A stretch of 64,000 nt of DNA from Pseudomonadota bacterium. Its GTDB lineage: Bacteria > Pseudomonadota > Gammaproteobacteria > Burkholderiales > Burkholderiaceae_C. The translations under genes and the position numbers were made by a program. Below the pieces are notes generated by a model. It made no database searches. It was not told the DNA's origin and saw only the letters and a program-made list of their open reading frames with translations. The DNA lies in assembly GCA_018241405.1 (NCBI GenBank), contig JAFEDY010000028.1, positions 24,014 to 88,013 on the forward strand. The letters run 5' to 3'. Below are positions 1-8,398 of this stretch, one piece after another (within the stretch, counting starts at the first letter, position 1; each line of letters opens with the position of its first letter).

Positions 1-2549
1 GCTGGGCCGTGGGCGATGGCGGCACCATCCTCGCCACCAGCAACGGCGGCAACTCCTGGGCCGCGCAGGCCAGCGGCACTAAGGCATCGCTCACAAGCGT
101 GCATTTCACCGCCGAGGACCCCCGGCGCGGCTGGGCCGTGGGCAACTACGGCACCATCCTCGCCACGCGCGACGGCGGCCGGCAGTGGAGCGCGATCGCC
201 CTCTACCAACGCTTCTGGGCGCCGTGGTACTTCGCGGCGCTGCTGCTCCTGACACTGGCGGCCTTCACCCTGCTCGGCTTCGACGAATCGAAGCGCGCTG
301 CCGGAGCTGTCGATGACGCCGCTGCCGCCATCGGCGGGGCGGCCACGTTCCTGCGCTCCGACCAGCCGGTCGCGGACAAGGCGCTGGACCGGCTCGGCGT
401 GCGCCCGGTCGTCGAGGCGCTGTCGTCCTTCATCCGCAACCGTGACACCGAACCGCGCGTGACGATTGCTGTCACCGGCGAATGGGGCAACGGCAAAAGC
501 TCGGTGATGCGCATGCTGCAGACCGAGCTCAACCACGCGGGCTTTCGCACCGCGTGGTTCAACGCCTGGCACCACCAGCAGGAGGGCAAGCAGATGAGCG
601 CGCTGTTCAATGTCGTGCGCAGCCAGGCCGTGCCGCAATGGTGGCGCCAGCCGCTGGCCGCATGGCGCGTGCGCTCGCGGCTGATCTGGGGACGCGGCTG
701 GTTCTACAAGGCCGTGGCCGTAGTCACGGCGTTCGTGCTGGTGCTGCTCGCCGGCAATCTGTTGGGCGACGGCTGGGGCATGGCCTATGAACGCACGCAG
801 GCGAACTTTCGCCATCATGTGCTGCAACAGAAAAAGACAGCGATCACCGGCGCGAGTCTGGCCAAACTCGATCCGTTCGCGAAGCCTGCATCCCCATCGC
901 CGCCGCTTCGCGCCGCCGAAAATGCCCCGTCCGCTACCGACCCGTGCGACACGCAAAGCTGGTCTCCTGGCCAGCGTACCGTGCCGATCCGGCCCGAGGT
1001 CTACTGCTATCTCAAGCGCAACCTGCAATGGGAAGAAGGCGGCGATACCCGCCTCTGTGGCGTGCAGCGCAAGCCATCAGCGCAAAACGGCCCCACTTGC
1101 GTGTTTCCGAAGCCAGAGGATCTGCTCACAACCATCGAGGCTCGCGATGTCACCGGCGCGCGCAAGCTCTTGCCGAGCGAGCGCAAGGCCATACGCGACG
1201 CCGCCGAGACCGTGCCGCCGCCGCCCATGTTCCCCTGGCTCGGCAGCACGACCTTCGGCACCATTGCGGCGGCGTTGGCCCTGCTGTTCACGAAGGGAGT
1301 CACCGTCTACGGCGTGCAGTTGACGGCACCGTTGCGCACCCTGCTCGCCGCGGCGCAAGGCAAGTCGGAGGTCGGCAAGGAGGCCAGCGGCACCGTGGAA
1401 CGCTACCGCACCGAGTTCCGCCTGCTGTGCGACGCGCTGGACGGCAGGCTTGTGATCTTTATCGACGACCTGGATCGCTGCACGCCCGAGACCGTGAACG
1501 GCATGCTGGAGCTGACGAACTACCTCACCGACGTCGGCCGTTGCTTCGTCATCATTGGCGCGGCGATGGAGCGCGTGCTCAAGTGCGTCAAGTCACCCGT
1601 CGGTGACGATCCGGACTATCCGACGGCCTACCTGCGCAAGCTCGTGCACATCGAACTGCCGGTGCCGCAGGACCGCACCCTGCTGGACCAGCTTGCCGCT
1701 GCGCCACCTGCCGCCGAGCCACGGCGCCCAGGGCTGCCACGGTGGGCGTCGCCGGCCGTGGGTGTCGCTGCGATGCTGGGCGTGTTGTGCCTGGCATTTC
1801 TTGCCGGAAGCGCATTGCACGAAGGCAGCAAGGGCGAAGCGTTCGAGGTTGTCGCGAAGCCCGTCGTTGTAGCCCTGGAGGACCCGGGTCCGGGCCCGAT
1901 CCCACCGCCCCCACCCCCGCCGCCCCCGGACCCGCAAACGCCAAGCCAAGAAGTAGGCCTGGCACCTGCACGCGCGGCCGAGATGCCCTACGCATGGCTG
2001 GGCGGCGCGCTGCTGTTGGTGCTCAGCGCGGTCGGCCTGCGCTGGCTGCGCCGCAACCGCGAGCAGGTCGTGGTCGCGCTGGGTGGCGCACTGCGATCCG
2101 AGGATTCGGATCGCTTCATGCAAGCACTCCGCATCTGGAACCCGGTGGTCGTCAGCTACGACCCCACGCCGCGCCACGTCAAGCGCTTCTACAACCGCGC
2201 GCGGCTGTTCGCGGCGTACGAGCAGCAACAAGGTGGCGAGAGCGCGGCGAGCGATGAATCGCTCGTCGCGCTGGCGGCCATGCACCACCTCGACCCGGCC
2301 TTGCTTGCAAGCCTGGCGGATACATGGACGAAGGCCGGTCCCGGAGCACGGGCACAGGACGTTGTGAACAGGTGGCTGCAGGAACGCGCTTCAGCCCAGG
2401 GTGGCAACCAGGATCAGCCGGCGCGCGAACTCCGAAGTCAGGCGCTGTTCAGTGCCTGGTCCCAGCATCTGAAGACCTTCGACACCGCCCCCAGCCTCGA
2501 CCAAATTCGGCGCTTCGCACGCCGCGTCGAAGGCATCCTGGTGCGATGA
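1..2549 (+). CDS. Ycf48-repeat / KAP-family P-loop NTPase membrane protein (5' end outside window)
   Basis: The frame is open to the left edge, so the N-terminus is missing. Numbering from the GTG at 9, residues 1-65 hold two repeats of the form GWAVG(D/N)xGTILAT-(S/R)(N/D)GG-W, as in Ycf48/Hcf136-type or BNR beta-propellers. A membrane segment follows (about 69-91). The KAP NTPase domain has Walker A GEWGNGKS near 157 and Walker B VIFIDDLDRC near 482, with two membrane segments between them (about 237-256 and 413-434), the usual KAP layout. Two more membrane segments (about 580-600 and 661-680) flank a run of nine prolines. The C-terminus has the KAP-like TPRHVKRFYNRAR. KAP NTPases are membrane-tethered ATPases, and some act in phage defence. 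The propeller fusion suggests an outward-facing sensor coupled to a cytoplasmic ATPase; that role is inference. Confidence 0.85.
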   Translation, partial: WAVGDGGTILATSNGGNSWAAQASGTKASLTSVHFTAEDPRRGWAVGNYGTILATRDGGRQWSAIALYQRFWAPWYFAALLLLTLAAFTLLGFDESKRAAGAVDDAAAAIGGAATFLRSDQPVADKALDRLGVRPVVEALSSFIRNRDTEPRVTIAVTGEWGNGKSSVMRMLQTELNHAGFRTAWFNAWHHQQEGKQMSALFNVVRSQAVPQWWRQPLAAWRVRSRLIWGRGWFYKAVAVVTAFVLVLLAGNLLGDGWGMAYERTQANFRHHVLQQKKTAITGASLAKLDPFAKPASPSPPLRAAENAPSATDPCDTQSWSPGQRTVPIRPEVYCYLKRNLQWEEGGDTRLCGVQRKPSAQNGPTCVFPKPEDLLTTIEARDVTGARKLLPSERKAIRDAAETVPPPPMFPWLGSTTFGTIAAALALLFTKGVTVYGVQLTAPLRTLLAAAQGKSEVGKEASGTVERYRTEFRLLCDALDGRLVIFIDDLDRCTPETVNGMLELTNYLTDVGRCFVIIGAAMERVLKCVKSPVGDDPDYPTAYLRKLVHIELPVPQDRTLLDQLAAAPPAAEPRRPGLPRWASPAVGVAAMLGVLCLAFLAGSALHEGSKGEAFEVVAKPVVVALEDPGPGPIPPPPPPPPPDPQTPSQEVGLAPARAAEMPYAWLGGALLLVLSAVGLRWLRRNREQVVVALGGALRSEDSDRFMQALRIWNPVVVSYDPTPRHVKRFYNRARLFAAYEQQQGGESAASDESLVALAAMHHLDPALLASLADTWTKAGPGARAQDVVNRWLQERASAQGGNQDQPARELRSQALFSAWSQHLKTFDTAPSLDQIRRFARRVEGILVR

Positions 2550-2683: not shown

Positions 2684-3460
2684 CTACAACTGCGTGCCCA
2701 CCAGCCGCCCCACCGCATAGGTCACGCCCATGGCCAGCAGGCCGCCGCTGGCGTTGCGCAGTGCGGCGCGCAGCCTGGGCGCGCCGCCCAGATGGGCCGA
2801 GGCCACGCCGGTGAGCAGCAGCGCCAGCGTCACGGCCCCCATGGCCACCGGCACCAGCCATGGCGCGGGCGCCAGCAGGACCGCCAGCAGGGGCACCAGC
2901 GCCCCCACGGCAAACGCCACGGCGGACGCGCCCGCGGCCTGCCAGGGGTTGGTGTACTCGCCGGGCTTGATGCCGAGTTCGATTTCGGCGTGGGCCGCCA
3001 GCGCGTCGTGCTGGGTCAGCTCCCGGGCCACCTGCGCGGCGGTGGCGTGGCTCAGGCCCTTTTTCTGCAGCAGGGCCGCCAGCTCCTTCAACTCCACCTC
3101 GGGCAACTGGGTCAGCTCCTCATGCTCCAGCAGCACGGCGGCGCGCTCCGTGTCGCTCTGGGTGCTGACCGAGACATACTCGCCCGCCGCCATCGACAGC
3201 GCTCCCGAGACCAGCCCCGCTATGCCCGCCGTGAGCAGGGCCGCGAAGCTGGGGCTGGCCCCCGCCACGCCCAGCAGCAGGCCCGCCGTGGACACGATGC
3301 CGTCGTTGGCGCCCAGCACGCCCGCGCGCAGCCAATTGAACCGCTGCGACATGCGGCCGGTAACAGTGCCGTCGTAGGCCGAGTGGCCCGGCGCCGCTAC
3401 GGGAGGGGAGGAGTCTATGGAGGGCATGGAAGGGCCGGGCAGTTGGATTGCATCCACCAT
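2684..3460 (-). CDS. VIT1/CCC1-family membrane transporter (Fe/Mn)
   Basis: The 258-aa product has the VIT/CCC1 signatures GANDGIVSTAGLLLG and SMAAGEYVSVSTQSD, a hydrophilic acidic middle part, and about five membrane segments (two early, three in the last 90 residues). The family moves Fe(II) or Mn(II) out of the cytoplasm, or stores it. The start at 3460 (MVDAIQ) is chosen because AGGAAA lies just upstream; an internal ATG at 3427 is possible. The frame continues open upstream, antisense to the LysR gene, but that part is a shadow. It converges with the KAP gene across a 134-bp gap. Metal specificity cannot be read from the sequence. Confidence 0.9.
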   Translation of the reverse strand: MVDAIQLPGPSMPSIDSSPPVAAPGHSAYDGTVTGRMSQRFNWLRAGVLGANDGIVSTAGLLLGVAGASPSFAALLTAGIAGLVSGALSMAAGEYVSVSTQSDTERAAVLLEHEELTQLPEVELKELAALLQKKGLSHATAAQVARELTQHDALAAHAEIELGIKPGEYTNPWQAAGASAVAFAVGALVPLLAVLLAPAPWLVPVAMGAVTLALLLTGVASAHLGGAPRLRAALRNASGGLLAMGVTYAVGRLVGTQL

Positions 3461-3489: not shown

Positions 3490-4386
3490 TCAGTTCCGCG
3501 CGCCCAGCCGCTGCACCAGGAAGTCGATCATGGCCCGCACCTTGGCCGGCGCATGCCGCACCGCGGGCCAGACGATGTGGATGCCGCCCAGGTCGCGCGC
3601 GGGCTGGTCCAGGTCCAGTGCCTGCAGCGCGCCGCGCGCCAGGGCCTCGCCGACGATGAAGCCGGGCTCGTAGATCAGGCCCTGGCCGCCCAGGGCCGCG
3701 GCCAGCAGCGCGTCGCCGCTGTTGGCGCGCAGATTGCCCTGCACCTTCTGCCGCACGCGGCCGTCCGTGCCAAAGCACCACTGCTCCGGGCCATTGGTGC
3801 TGGAGAGCGTGTAGCCCAGGCAGTTGTGCTGCGCCAGGTCGGCCACGCGACGCGGCACGCCGCGCGCCTCCAGATAGGCGGGTGCCGCGCACAGCACCAG
3901 CCGGCAGTCGCCCAGGCGGCGCGCCTGCAGGCTGTCGTCGCGCAGCGCGCCTATGCGCACGGCCAGGTCCCAGCGCTGCTCCACCAGATCGACCACCGCG
4001 TCGGAGAGGCCCAGTTCCAGCGTGACGGCCGGGTGCGCCTGGCCGAAGGCCGGCAGCAGCGGCGCGATGTGGCGCAGGCCGTAGACCTGCGGTGCATTCA
4101 GCCGCAGCAGGCCGGTGGCCAGCCGGCGCTGGGATGTGGCGGCCGCGTCGGCCTCGTCGAGCTCGGCCAGGATGCGCTGCACGGCGTCCAGGTAGCTGGC
4201 GCCCGCGTCGGTCAGCGCCAGCCGACGCGTGGAGCGGTGCAGCAGCTTGACGCCCAGGCGCGCCTCCAGCGCATTGACATGCTTGGCGGCCATGGCGGGC
4301 GACATGTCGAACTGGCGCGCCGCCGCCGACAGACTGCCCACGGCGGCGGCGCGTGCGAACACGCGCAGGCTGGTGATGCGATCCAT
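3490..4386 (-). CDS. LysR-family transcriptional regulator
   Basis: The 298-aa product is the usual LysR length. The N-terminal winged helix-turn-helix (about 1-60, LSAAARQFDMSPAMAAKHVNALEARLG) is followed by a linker helix and a substrate-binding domain with ALRDDSLQARRLG and a typical C-terminal part. It resembles the DsdC/AaeR-like 'MDRITSLRVFARAA' subgroup. It is divergent from the dioxygenase gene at 4462 with a 75-bp spacer, so it probably controls that gene as well as itself. The gene ends 29 bp before the VIT gene start on the same strand. Confidence 0.93.
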   Translation of the reverse strand: MDRITSLRVFARAAAVGSLSAAARQFDMSPAMAAKHVNALEARLGVKLLHRSTRRLALTDAGASYLDAVQRILAELDEADAAATSQRRLATGLLRLNAPQVYGLRHIAPLLPAFGQAHPAVTLELGLSDAVVDLVEQRWDLAVRIGALRDDSLQARRLGDCRLVLCAAPAYLEARGVPRRVADLAQHNCLGYTLSSTNGPEQWCFGTDGRVRQKVQGNLRANSGDALLAAALGGQGLIYEPGFIVGEALARGALQALDLDQPARDLGGIHIVWPAVRHAPAKVRAMIDFLVQRLGARN

Positions 4387-4461
4387 TCAACACTATGGGT
4401 AGAAACTATGGTGCGATTTTGAGGCTTTGAAAATCCTGAGTCAAAGATCAAACTGGCCTGC
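4387..4461. promoter_or_regulatory. Divergent LysR/dioxygenase intergenic region with a direct repeat
   Basis: This 75-bp spacer must hold both promoters and the LysR operator. ACTATGG occurs twice, at 4392-4398 and 4405-4411, 13 bp apart, which would place two half-sites roughly on one face of the helix. The spacer is visibly AT-richer than the flanking genes. Treating the repeat as the LysR binding site is inference. Confidence 0.4.
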
Positions 4462-5286
4462 ATGACACACACTACGACCGCCCCCCGCATGCCCACGCTG
4501 TACATTCCCCACGGCGCCGGGCCCTGCTTCTTCATGGACTGGAACCCGGCCGACGCCTGGGACAAGACCGCCGCCTATCTGCGCAGCATTCCGGTCAGCC
4601 TGCCGGCGCGGCCGCAGGCCATCCTGCTGGTCACGGCGCACTGGTTGGCGCCGCAACCCAGCATGAGCAGCGCCGCCCGCCCCGGCCTGCTGTTCGACTA
4701 TGGCGGCTTCCCTCCGCACACCTACGAGCTGACCTACCCCGCGCCCGGCGCACCCCTGCTGGCCGAGCGCGTCAGCGACCTGCTGGCCGGCGCCGGCTTC
4801 GCCCCGGTGCAGGACGGCGCGCGCGGCTATGACCACGGCACCTTCATCCCACTCAAGGTGGCCTTTCCCGACGCCGACATCCCGGTGCTGCAGCTGTCGC
4901 TGCTGAAGAGCCTGGATGCGGCCGAGCACATCCGGCTGGGGCAGGCGCTCACAGCCCTGCGCGATGAGGGCGTGCTGATCATCGGCAGCGGCATGAGCTA
5001 CCACAACATGCGCGGCTACGGCGACCCGCGCGCCACCGCCATCGGCGCCGAGTTCGACCGCTGGCTGGGCGAGACGGTGGCGCTGCCTGCGCCTGAGCGC
5101 AATGCGCGCCTGGCCGACTGGGCCGTGGCGAGCGGCCCCGCGGGCCGCCTGTCGCACCCGCCGCGCGCCGAGGAGCATTTGCTGCCGCTGCACGTGGTGG
5201 CCGGCGCGGCCGGCGAGAGCCAGGGCGCCAAGGTGTTCACCGACCGCGTGATGGCGGTGGACATTTCCGCCATCCGCTTTGGTTGA
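4462..5286 (+). CDS. ygiD: DODA-type extradiol ring-cleavage dioxygenase (LigB superfamily, YgiD-like)
   Basis: The 274-aa protein begins with PTLYIPHGAGPCFFMD and has VTAHW around residue 60, the pattern of the class III extradiol / 4,5-DOPA dioxygenase family. Candidate metal ligands are His17, His60 and the EEHLLPLH segment near 237-244, with a conserved His in GSGMSYHNMRGYG near 181. Family members use Fe(II) or Zn(II) to open catechol-type rings; the physiological substrate of YgiD-like enzymes is usually unknown. The gene is divergent from the LysR gene at 3490, its likely regulator. The function call is by family only. Confidence 0.9.
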   Translation: MTHTTTAPRMPTLYIPHGAGPCFFMDWNPADAWDKTAAYLRSIPVSLPARPQAILLVTAHWLAPQPSMSSAARPGLLFDYGGFPPHTYELTYPAPGAPLLAERVSDLLAGAGFAPVQDGARGYDHGTFIPLKVAFPDADIPVLQLSLLKSLDAAEHIRLGQALTALRDEGVLIIGSGMSYHNMRGYGDPRATAIGAEFDRWLGETVALPAPERNARLADWAVASGPAGRLSHPPRAEEHLLPLHVVAGAAGESQGAKVFTDRVMAVDISAIRFG

Positions 5287-5304
5287 TGCCCACAGGAACG
5301 CGGC

Positions 5305-5787
5305 ATGATCGCCAACACACCCGTCATGCTTCTATTTCAGGGGCTTGGTGCGCTGATCCTGTGCGTGCCAGCGCGTGATTTGACACAAGAACCGGTGGAA
5401 CACGTACTGCCGCTGTCCGCGCCCGCTCTGGCCACCACGCTGCGCGGCACCCCGCCCAGCCCGTTGGCGATAGAGCAGGCCATCGAGCAGATCGAGGACG
5501 CGATCATGCCGGCACGCGCGCTCACCACCGGCGCCACGCAGCTCGTGCTTGCCGACGCGGCGCTGCACGCCTTGGTCGCAAGTGCCAGCGATGCATACGC
5601 GGATGAGATCACCCTCGGCCGCGACGCGGTCGAGCGCCTGTTCGAGCGCCTCGCCGCGCGCTCCCAGGGCCGCCCCGCCGCGCAGGACGCCCTGCCGACC
5701 GACCCGGCCAGCTGCGCCGCGCTGCTGCTCGCGCGCGAGGCCCTGCACCACTGGGGCCTGGAGACACTGACCGTGCGCCGGTCTTGA
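5305..5787 (+). CDS. Hypothetical 160-aa protein
   Basis: I do not recognise this protein. It begins 18 bp after the dioxygenase stop with AGGAA about 7 nt before the ATG, so it may be co-transcribed. The first 25 residues are hydrophobic (MLLFQGLGALILCV) and could be a signal or anchor, but no cleavage site is clear. The rest is Ala/Leu-rich and probably helical, with an acidic segment IEQAIEQIEDAIMP and a Leu-rich C-terminus. Codon usage with strong G/C in third positions matches its neighbours, which supports a real gene. No catalytic motif is visible. Confidence 0.6.
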   Translation: MIANTPVMLLFQGLGALILCVPARDLTQEPVEHVLPLSAPALATTLRGTPPSPLAIEQAIEQIEDAIMPARALTTGATQLVLADAALHALVASASDAYADEITLGRDAVERLFERLAARSQGRPAAQDALPTDPASCAALLLAREALHHWGLETLTVRRS

Positions 5788-5902
5788 TATGGTTTTTGCA
5801 TATCGCAGGCATTGGTGCAATTGATTTTTCTTTTGCCACCGGTTTTCCTACCATGGGCGCAGCCGTTCACGGCCCCATCCTTTCCCCCAACAGGAGCGCA
5901 CC

Positions 5903-7432
5903 ATGACCGACAGCCGCAAGCAATGCCCCGTCACCCACCTGACCACCGACTTCGGCGCCCCCGTGCCCAGCAACCGCGACAGCCTCACGGCCGGGTCGCG
6001 CGGCCCGCTGCTGGCGCAGGACGTCTGGCTCAATGAAAAGCTGGCCAACTTCGTGCGCGAGGTCATCCCCGAGCGGCGCATGCACGCCAAGGGCTCGGGC
6101 GCGTTCGGCACCTTCACCGTCACGCACGACATCACCAAGTACACCCGCGCCAAGCTGTTTGAACAGATCGGCAAGAAGACCGACATATTCGCCCGCTTTA
6201 CCACCGTGGCCGGCGAGCGTGGCGCGGCCGATGCCGAGCGCGACATCCGCGGCTTTGCCCTCAAGTTCTATACCGAGGAGGGCAACTGGGACATGGTTGG
6301 CAACAACACGCCGGTGTTCTTCATCCGCGACCCGCGCCAGTTCCCCGACCTGAACAAGGCCGTCAAGCGCGACCCGCGCACCAATATGCGTTCTGCCACC
6401 AACAACTGGGACTACTGGACGCTTGTCCCAGAGGCGCTGCACCAGATCACCATCGTCATGAGCGAGCGTGGCATCCCCGCCAGCTACCGCCACATGCACG
6501 GCTTTGGATCGCACACCTACAGCTTCTGGAACGCTGCGGGCGAGCGCTTCTGGGTCAAGTTCCACTTCCGCACCCAGCAGGGCATCCAGAACCTGAGCGA
6601 CGCCGAGGCCGAGGCCCTGGTCGGCAAGGACCGCGAAAGCCATCAGCGCGACCTGTACGAGGCCATCGCGCGCGGCGACTTCCCCAAGTGGACGATGTAC
6701 GTGCAGGTCATGCCCGAAACCGACGCAGACAAGGTGCCCTACCACCCGTTCGACCTGACCAAGGTCTGGCCGCATGGCGACTACCCGCTCATTGAGGTCG
6801 GCGAGTTCGAGCTGAACAAAAACCCCGAGAATTTTTTCCTCGACGTCGAGCAGTCCGCCTTTGCCCCCAGCAACCTGGTGCCCGGCATCGGCGTGAGCCC
6901 CGATCGCATGCTGCAGGCCCGCCTGACCAACTACGCCGACGCGCAGCGCTACCGCCTGGGCGGCAACTACCAACAGATCCCGGTGAACCGCGCGCGCTGC
7001 CCCGTGCACAGCAACCACCGCGACGGCATGGGCCGGGTCGATGCCAACTACGGCAGCGCCCCGCACTACGAGCCCAACAGCTTCGGCCAATGGCAGGCGC
7101 AGCCCGAGTTTGCCGAGCCGCCGCTCACGATCGCCGGCGATGCGCGCCACTGGAGCTTCCACGAGGACGACGCCAACTACTTCGAGCAGCCGCGCAAGCT
7201 CTTCCAGCTAATGACGGATGCGCAGAAGCAGGCGCTGTTTGGCAACACCGCCCGCGCCATGGGTGACGCGCCCGAGTTCGTGAAATTCCGCCACATCCGC
7301 AACTGCCACGCCGCCGACCCGGCCTACGGCGCCGGCGTTGCCCAGGCGCTGGGCCTGGATCTGCAAAAGGCCCTGGCCTCGAAGAAGGATGATCCGATGA
7401 ACGGCAGCCCGCTGGTGGCGCTGCCGGTGTGA
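5903..7432 (+). CDS. katA: Monofunctional heme catalase (small-subunit type)
   Basis: The 509-aa product is the length of a clade 3 catalase and decomposes hydrogen peroxide in the cytoplasm. The distal His61 ([14 protein letters not shown]), Asn134 ([11 protein letters not shown]) and the proximal heme ligand Tyr344 ([14 protein letters not shown]) are all present, as are the core motif [18 protein letters not shown] and the [14 protein letters not shown] segment. AGGAG sits 6 nt before the ATG. No Sec signal peptide is visible. The 115-bp upstream spacer is AT-rich, but I could not find a convincing OxyR site. Confidence 0.97.
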
Positions 7433-7462
7433 TGGGATGACTGCTCCGCTCGCTTTGCGCCT

Positions 7463-8398
7463 TCACCCCCTGCGGTGCAGCAGCTCCAGGAACATTTCTG
7501 CCGGCCGGCTCATGGGCCGGTCCTGGCGCACCAGGCTGCCGTAGGCCTCGAGCTTGCGGCGCATGCGGTAGGGCAGGATGCGCAGCATGCCGTGCGCGGC
7601 ATTGATGTCGGCCACGGCCTGTGGAATGACGCCCACCATGTCCGAGCCGCGCACCAGGTTCATGGTGGTCAAGATGGAGCCGGTCTCGATCAACCCGCGC
7701 GGCAGGGCCAGGCCATGGGCGCGGAACTCCTGCTCGATCAGCGCGCGCATGGGACTGCCCGGCGGCTGCAGCACCCAGCCATGGGCCTGCAGGGCCTCGA
7801 AGCTCACCGTGCGTGATTGCAGCAGCGGATGGTCGTTGCCGACCACGATGGCCAGGGCCTCGTCGTCGATGGCGCGAAAGCGGTAGTCGCCGGCCGCGCC
7901 GCCCGTCATGCGCCCTATCACCACCTCCAGTACGCCCTCGTGCAGCTGCGCCAGCAGGCGGTCGCTGGTGTCCACGGCCACCTCGATCTCCAGCAGCGGC
8001 AGCTGGCGCTTCAAGTCCAGCAGCGCGCGTGTCAGCCGCCCCGGCGATGCCGCCATGATGCTGCCCACGGCCAGGCGCCCGGCGCTGCCCTGGCGCAACT
8101 CGCCCAGCTCGCGGTTCAGCGCCTCGATGCTGCCGCGCAGGTTGCGAAAGTAGGCCATCACGCGCTCGCCCGCGGCATTGCGCTGCAGGCGCCGGCCCAC
8201 GCGGTCGAACAGCGGCTGGCCCAGCGCCTCTTCGAGCTCGTGCAGCATCTTCGTGGCCGCGGGCTGGGTCAGGCCCAGCTGATTGGCGGCGCCACGCAAG
8301 GTTTGATGCGCATCAATGGCCAGCATCAGCGCCACCTGGCGCATGCGCAGGCGGTTGAGCAGCTGCGGCGTGCTGTCGCTGCGGTCTATCGATCCCAT
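7463..8398 (-). CDS. LysR-family regulator (GbpR-like)
   Basis: The 311-aa LysR regulator has its helix-turn-helix near residues 20-80 (GAANQLGLTQPAATKMLHELEEALGQPLFDR). The extended N-terminus and the sequence RMRQVALMLAIDAHQTLRGAANQLGL are typical of the GbpR group, which often controls sugar-binding protein genes. It is divergent from the Bug/dehydratase operon starting at 8507, which also deals with a sugar acid, so a local regulator role is likely. The inducer is unknown. Confidence 0.9.
   Translation of the reverse strand: MGSIDRSDSTPQLLNRLRMRQVALMLAIDAHQTLRGAANQLGLTQPAATKMLHELEEALGQPLFDRVGRRLQRNAAGERVMAYFRNLRGSIEALNRELGELRQGSAGRLAVGSIMAASPGRLTRALLDLKRQLPLLEIEVAVDTSDRLLAQLHEGVLEVVIGRMTGGAAGDYRFRAIDDEALAIVVGNDHPLLQSRTVSFEALQAHGWVLQPPGSPMRALIEQEFRAHGLALPRGLIETGSILTTMNLVRGSDMVGVIPQAVADINAAHGMLRILPYRMRRKLEAYGSLVRQDRPMSRPAEMFLELLHRRG

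Follow-up and report, generated by a model that had tools for sequence, protein, structure and literature searches.

Results and discussion

Organisation of the propeller-KAP gene

The window, i.e. the whole stretch of 64,000 nucleotides that was analysed (G000:C20:24014-88013), opens inside a gene. One open frame on the forward strand (3-2549, 848 codons, stop codon at 2547-2549) with an open 5' end carries propeller blades, a KAP domain and membrane helices. It is the 3' part of a propeller-KAP gene, the 5' part of which lies beyond an 82-N scaffold gap and outside the window. A Pfam search with this part alone yielded KAP_NTPase (aa 135-557, E 8.5e-25, 88 bits, cut-off 20) and PSII_BNR/Ycf48 (aa 1-70, E 4.5e-7, 29.9 bits, cut-off 27). 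Both scores exceed the Pfam cut-offs, and hence neither match arose by chance.

The final two Ycf48/Asp-box blades (GWAVGxxGTILAT...DGGxxW), probably periplasmic, occupy positions 3-209, as indicated by the PSII_BNR match, the placement of their motifs (WAVGDGGTILAT at 3-38 and GWAVGNYGTILAT at 129-167) and matching 126-bp units upstream. Both precede membrane helix 2 of the full protein (225-281, hydropathy 2.01), which lies between propeller and KAP domain at a position shared by relatives. The first-pass annotation had described at least two Ycf48/BNR repeats before the first membrane segment of the window and a full KAP ATPase with membrane segments inside and after it, and the Pfam matches and hydropathy bear this out. 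Repeats in a separate upstream reading frame, which it had also considered, were rejected: the blades are in frame with the KAP domain, and a paralogue in the same genome is one intact frame.

With its inserted membrane helices, the KAP P-loop NTPase domain spans 405-1673. Its Walker A motif (GEWGNGKS, 477-500; W, G, G and K invariant among 68 relatives) is followed by a conserved FNAWHH motif (558-575), invariant or nearly so in the same relatives, and by Walker B (VIFIDDLDR, 1452-1478; D, D, D, R and C invariant among the 68). The first inserted hairpin consists of helix 3 (711-767, hydropathy 2.37) and a predicted helix 4 (1233-1298), which corresponds to a helix of the structural model (347-364), weak in the window copy and clear in several relatives. 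In the window protein and in relatives alike, hydropathy peaks lie between the two Walker motifs, and the helices are also present in the model; such insertions into the NTPase domain are a trait of part of the KAP family (PF07693). Beyond the domain lie helix 5 (1755-1811, hydropathy 2.21) and helix 6 (1983-2039, hydropathy 1.72). The loop joining them holds the nine-proline run noticed at first reading (1902-1928), which is not conserved in the 80%-identical orthologue. A conserved TPRxxKRFxNR motif 3' of helix 6 (2166-2198; P, R, N and R invariant and K nearly so among 68 relatives) may have a sensor-like role, and the C-terminal part of the protein is helical and conserved. All these features are encoded on the forward strand.

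As the first-pass annotation had stated, the 5' context lies outside the window. Leftward extension places the start of the gene about 2 kb upstream at a candidate ATG (MSSAPRDNGE...), followed by an N-terminal membrane helix, one isolated blade, a low-complexity linker and the 126-bp repeating blades. Ten more blade units were seen there, most with a period of 126 bp and many with a DNA similarity of 80-90%, so that at least 12 units are visible for this gene. Twelve regular blade motifs at a spacing of 42 aa agree with an Asp-box propeller, i.e. tandem units of about 42 aa with an SxDxGxTW motif and Ycf48-like homology. On the 3' side of the KAP gene, a VIT-type gene (iron/manganese transporter-like) lies on the minus strand at 2684-3430.

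Integrity of the window copy and its orthologue

The 82-N gap reaches exactly to window base 1. About 0.75 kb upstream of the window, the frame changes beside an ambiguous two-base NN, and one upstream blade unit contains a 27-bp insertion. Since these irregularities fall in a draft contig, the upstream array is unreliable and the window copy is unproven as intact. In the complete genome G005, the orthologue is 80% identical in the KAP part and comprises nine blade units, with one frame change where six C follow one another in the linker. In G005 the VIT-type stretch is missing, and a ring-opening-dioxygenase-like gene adjoins the KAP gene instead.

Whatever the role of the family, the window copy might be a decaying, functionless gene. 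Its frame change, its insertion and the gap within its array fit decay, as do the frame change of the orthologue in a complete genome and the split frames of several of the 80 best relatives. The frame change of the window copy, however, lies beside NN in a repetitive stretch of a draft assembly in 71 contigs and may be an assembly error, and the KAP half is intact, with its motifs all present and its identity to the orthologue high. We regard decay as rather unlikely, though well worth bearing in mind.

An intact paralogue in the same genome

A second copy in this genome (G000:C14; L018 5779-9900, minus strand) is intact and encodes 1,373 aa with 14 blades in a single frame; Pfam PSII_BNR matched it at E 2.8e-68. 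The gene is alone inside a 4.4-kb insert between direct repeats of 665 bp with 95.6% identity (L018 5105-5769 and 10184-10848). These repeats are duplicated ends of an osmC-like and an rbgA-like gene in convergent orientation. Four congeners (G001, G002, G004 and G005) have the same site without the insert. Repeats and empty site together indicate that the gene moved as single-gene cargo and that its flanks were duplicated. In the tree, the window copy groups with G005, Aquabacterium and Rhodocyclales and the C14 copy with Variovorax. The two copies lie on different branches and look like separate acquisitions. Both are surrounded by housekeeping genes.

The same genome also encodes a Ycf48-repeat protein of about 1,150 aa that begins with MQGDLSRETFD and carries no KAP domain (G000:C18; L032 5600-9067). 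It has counterparts in congeners (L020-L024), in L020 near a phage-type-baseplate-like protein.

Distribution, phylogeny and domain architecture of the family

The GTDB genomes were scanned with the KAP part as query, and the 80 best loci were taken. In at least 67 of these 80 closest KAP loci, the KAP domain is preceded by two or more Asp-box blades, as judged by profiles, and six more have one recognisable blade. The members belong to Pseudomonadota, Acidobacteriota, Verrucomicrobiota, KSB1, Calditrichota, Spirochaetota, Armatimonadota and others. Strong matches are sparse (three of 399 Burkholderiales and one of 398 Pseudomonadota genomes, the genome of the window being included in each count). 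The architecture is thus recurrent across phyla yet rare per genome. Asp-box propellers are already known, as are KAP NTPases and STAND ATPases with repetitive propellers. The first-pass annotation had called a propeller sensor joined to a KAP ATPase unusual. This holds insofar as no description of an Asp-box propeller-KAP fusion was found in the literature searched, which included few subscription papers and did not include the original KAP-family paper; the fusion is nevertheless far from a one-off, given its frequency among the nearest KAP loci.

In most of the complete members, an N-terminal helix is followed by an ectodomain with one or two Asp-box propellers. Helix 2 then lies about 75 aa ahead of Walker A of the KAP core, in which one helix pair separates the two conserved Walker motifs and another follows Walker B. 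The ectodomain lengths are bimodal with peaks near 400 and 630 aa. A strict rule of 7 or 14 blades was dropped in favour of about one or two propellers, since lengths between and beyond the peaks exist.

A tree of the NTPase core separates all 72 family proteins from QatA, PifA and other KAP proteins by a branch with an SH-aLRT of 100; the sample was drawn with a family member as query, and the long branches of PifA and some other proteins leave the deeper order unsure. WD40 ectodomains are nested at two separate places in this tree. The remaining loci among the best 80 include three with WD40 propellers. In two loci from Rhizobiales (L084 and L086), WD40 propellers replace most of the Asp-box blades, while a degenerate Asp-box-like stretch is kept beside helix 2, suggesting that WD40 blades were grafted into an older ectodomain.

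Topology and predicted structure

Across 58 proteins, the 15 aa on the N-terminal side of helix 1 hold on average 3.4 K+R compared with 1.5 on the sensor side, whereas the bias around helix 2 is weak. Together with the known topology of KAP proteins, this charge bias gives moderate support to a periplasmic propeller and a cytoplasmic NTPase.

Structure prediction, which the first-pass annotation had proposed as a check, returned a KAP model (pLDDT 81) that resembles AAA+ proteins and a propeller-like ectodomain. In the VIA-align comparison, the nearest match of the NTPase model was RdrA of RADAR (Z 16.0, 3.4 A, 220 residues), followed by ORC/Cdc6 and BrxC; Foldseek gave no match for this model below E 0.001. 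The RdrA match denotes similarity of the modelled AAA+ fold and shows no function. By sequence, the ectodomain is Ycf48-like (PDB 2xbg, E 2.6e-27). The top Foldseek match of its model was 2ymu, a highly repetitive propeller (E 6.8e-17); the model is modest (pLDDT about 72 over the blades, pTM 0.40) and was used for the fold class only.

Relation to known systems

The protein shares with the KAP family (PF07693), including PifA and QatA, the KAP-type Walker A and B motifs, the inserted helices and a Pfam score far above the cut-off. It differs in its N-terminal helix and Asp-box ectodomain, in forming a clade of its own and in being encoded by a stand-alone gene. Assignment to QatA fails, as the window protein and the paralogue score 81.6 and 82.5 bits against an NCBIfam equivalog threshold of 600 and fall in a separate clade. 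As for qatB, qatC and qatD, the 80 loci hold no recurrent neighbour of any kind, a comparison that did not rely on gene names. PifA of the F plasmid aligns over short KAP stretches only and not over its full length (23-30% identity, E 1e-5), and its clade is separate, though on a long branch.

With Ycf48/HCF136 (2xbg, 5oj5), the ectodomain shares blade sequence and fold, and Ycf48 PDB chains match it at E about 1e-27. In contrast to these proteins, it often contains about 14 similar blades, is fused to an ATPase and has no link to photosynthesis. Scores against the Ycf48 model (NF010237, 326 bits) were 36 for the window part, 164 for the orthologue and 245 for the paralogue, all below the threshold. 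WRAP-type WD40 propellers on STAND ATPases (2ymu; PMC9218822) are likewise recently amplified, often 14-bladed, attached to a P-loop ATPase and subject to frame disruptions. Here, however, the blades are mostly of the Asp-box type, the ATPase is a KAP protein that spans the membrane, and the propeller is N-terminal and, as argued above, probably periplasmic. The best STAND model, nSTAND_NTPase5, scored 28 bits and thus below its cut-off of 34.

RdrA of RADAR (8hr8, 8fnu) is the best structural match of the NTPase core, yet identity in the alignment is 14%, our protein is a membrane protein and no recurrent neighbour was found. KAP NTPases also occur among the hypervariable antigen sensors diversified by DGRs (PMC10907252). 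These resemble the present family in placing a variable recognition module on an NTPase, in some cases a KAP NTPase; here diversity comes from blade duplication, and no reverse transcriptase was noticed recurring beside the genes.

Blade turnover, mobility and a phage-borne copy

Blades of L055 and L115 have within-protein similarities of 0.76 and 0.72 and a similarity of 0.54 between the proteins; for the C14 copy and its Variovorax relative, the values are 0.73 and 0.79 within and 0.67 between. As blades are closer inside one protein than across relatives in several pairs, they appear to have been re-amplified within several lineages, whereas in some others they are old and diverged. L115 and L059 share 71% identity in the KAP part and have ectodomains of 629 and 290 aa. 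Split frames occur in about seven of the best 80 loci, in addition to the window copy and G005, and are perhaps in part assembly errors.

Two near-identical IMG/VR contigs (L159 and L160), both from a single phage lineage, encode a complete member of 1,315 aa with 15 blade matches at 3838-7785. Genes for a head maturation protease, a major head protein and a minor tail protein lie on one side and a gene for a tape measure protein on the other, a placement like that of a moron in a head-tail cluster. No terminase was found in the contig, which is recorded as a fragment. Among the isolated phages of INPHARED, the KAP part had no match, and the annotated propeller matches were tail fibre or baseplate proteins. 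In PLSDB, no propeller-KAP fusion was present among the plasmid matches listed, only propeller proteins annotated as 'YCF48-related' or similar, and also QatA or another KAP protein. One contig of Siccirubricoccus sp. G192 holds three near-identical propeller-KAP loci (L093, L096 and L109), with a serine-recombinase-like gene close to each; the copy that was scanned also has a large helicase-like gene beside it.

Taken together, blade re-amplification, two WD40 swaps, frame disruptions, movement as single-gene cargo and a copy in a phage cluster give the evolution of the family a conflict-like look. Rapid turnover and a possible link to immunity have also been described for repetitive, often disrupted propellers (PMC9218822). 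The same study raised self-recognition for short-lived repetitive propellers, and the propeller could accordingly be a variable surface in self/non-self or contact recognition at the envelope, e.g. in kin recognition or in immunity to bacteriocins or contact-delivered toxins. A repetitive, variable ectodomain on a conserved signalling domain would suit such a task. The family genes nonetheless have no recurrently linked toxin, secretion or immunity genes, and phage exclusion fits the phage-borne copy better, which makes recognition of this kind a quite improbable role.

Gene neighbourhoods

No recurrent partner gene emerged from an all-against-all comparison of the neighbours at the 80 loci. 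PADLOC gave few matches for 115 neighbours, mostly generic and none common to more than two, a count made with no background set for comparison. A location of homologues in defence islands, for which the first-pass annotation had suggested looking, gains no support from these neighbours. The family genes often lie among ordinary metabolic genes, and a few of the 115 neighbours are response regulators (four) or sigma factors (two).

The regulators, along with a topology compatible with a receptor, would agree with a general envelope-stress or nutrient sensor whose ATPase organises membrane signalling complexes, as has been proposed for the animal protein Kidins220/ARMS. A conserved regulatory partner is missing, however, and the genes are mobile and rare, so that we consider a sensor of this type very unlikely. 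The metabolic surroundings, for their part, together with the Ycf48-like blade sequence (see the 2xbg and PSII_BNR matches above), accord with housekeeping assembly or quality control, in which the periplasmic propeller would be a chaperone platform, like Ycf48 for photosystem II, and the KAP ATPase would remodel inner-membrane complexes. Against this stand the very sparse distribution, presence and absence within a genus, the turnover of blade number and propeller class, and the copy in a phage structural cluster; so sparse, variable and phage-borne a gene is ill-suited to be a conserved assembly factor, and a housekeeping role seems improbable.

Proposed function

A rare, mobile and fast-changing design that recurs in many bacteria and once among phage tail genes suggests a role in phage defence. 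In its specific form, we give this reading an even chance: a single mobile gene would encode an envelope receptor-ATPase that serves phage exclusion or abortive infection. The first-pass annotation had proposed a membrane surveillance or defence protein, which remains a reasonable supposition from topology, blade turnover, mobility and the phage-borne copy but gains no support from defence islands. The missing recurrent partner, the lack of visible defence-gene enrichment among the neighbours and the single phage lineage count against defence, as does the occurrence of blade amplification in propellers generally (PMC9218822).

Under the defence reading, the propeller would bind a ligand that appears in an attacked envelope, be it through phage adsorption, DNA entry or an envelope fragment. 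Binding would be relayed across helix 2 and lead to ATP-dependent assembly of the KAP domains, probably as a ring, because the closest folds among solved structures belong to AAA+ proteins that form rings. This assembly may then rearrange the inserted helices, so that infection is blocked or the membrane depolarised (superinfection exclusion or abortive infection), and rapid re-amplification of blades would alter what the propeller senses. The distant KAP protein PifA excludes T7, and it reportedly senses T7 proteins and kills by membrane depolarisation (PMC8594841).

More tentatively, and with somewhat less than even confidence, the family could represent a so far unnamed class of single-gene transmembrane immune receptors of bacteria, in which swappable, re-amplified propellers (Asp-box, sometimes WD40) would face the periplasm while a KAP ATPase assembles and disrupts the membrane. 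Carried by chromosomes and at least one phage lineage, such receptors would be the counterpart of the cytosolic propeller-STAND ATPases. To our knowledge, all bacterial propeller-bearing immune ATPases known so far are cytosolic. If the propeller is indeed outside and the ATPase inside, attack could be detected at the envelope, and known bacterial receptors for this step are few. The recently amplified blades and the shorter and longer versions, with about one and about two propellers, further offer a natural set for studying how recognition surfaces originate by blade duplication.
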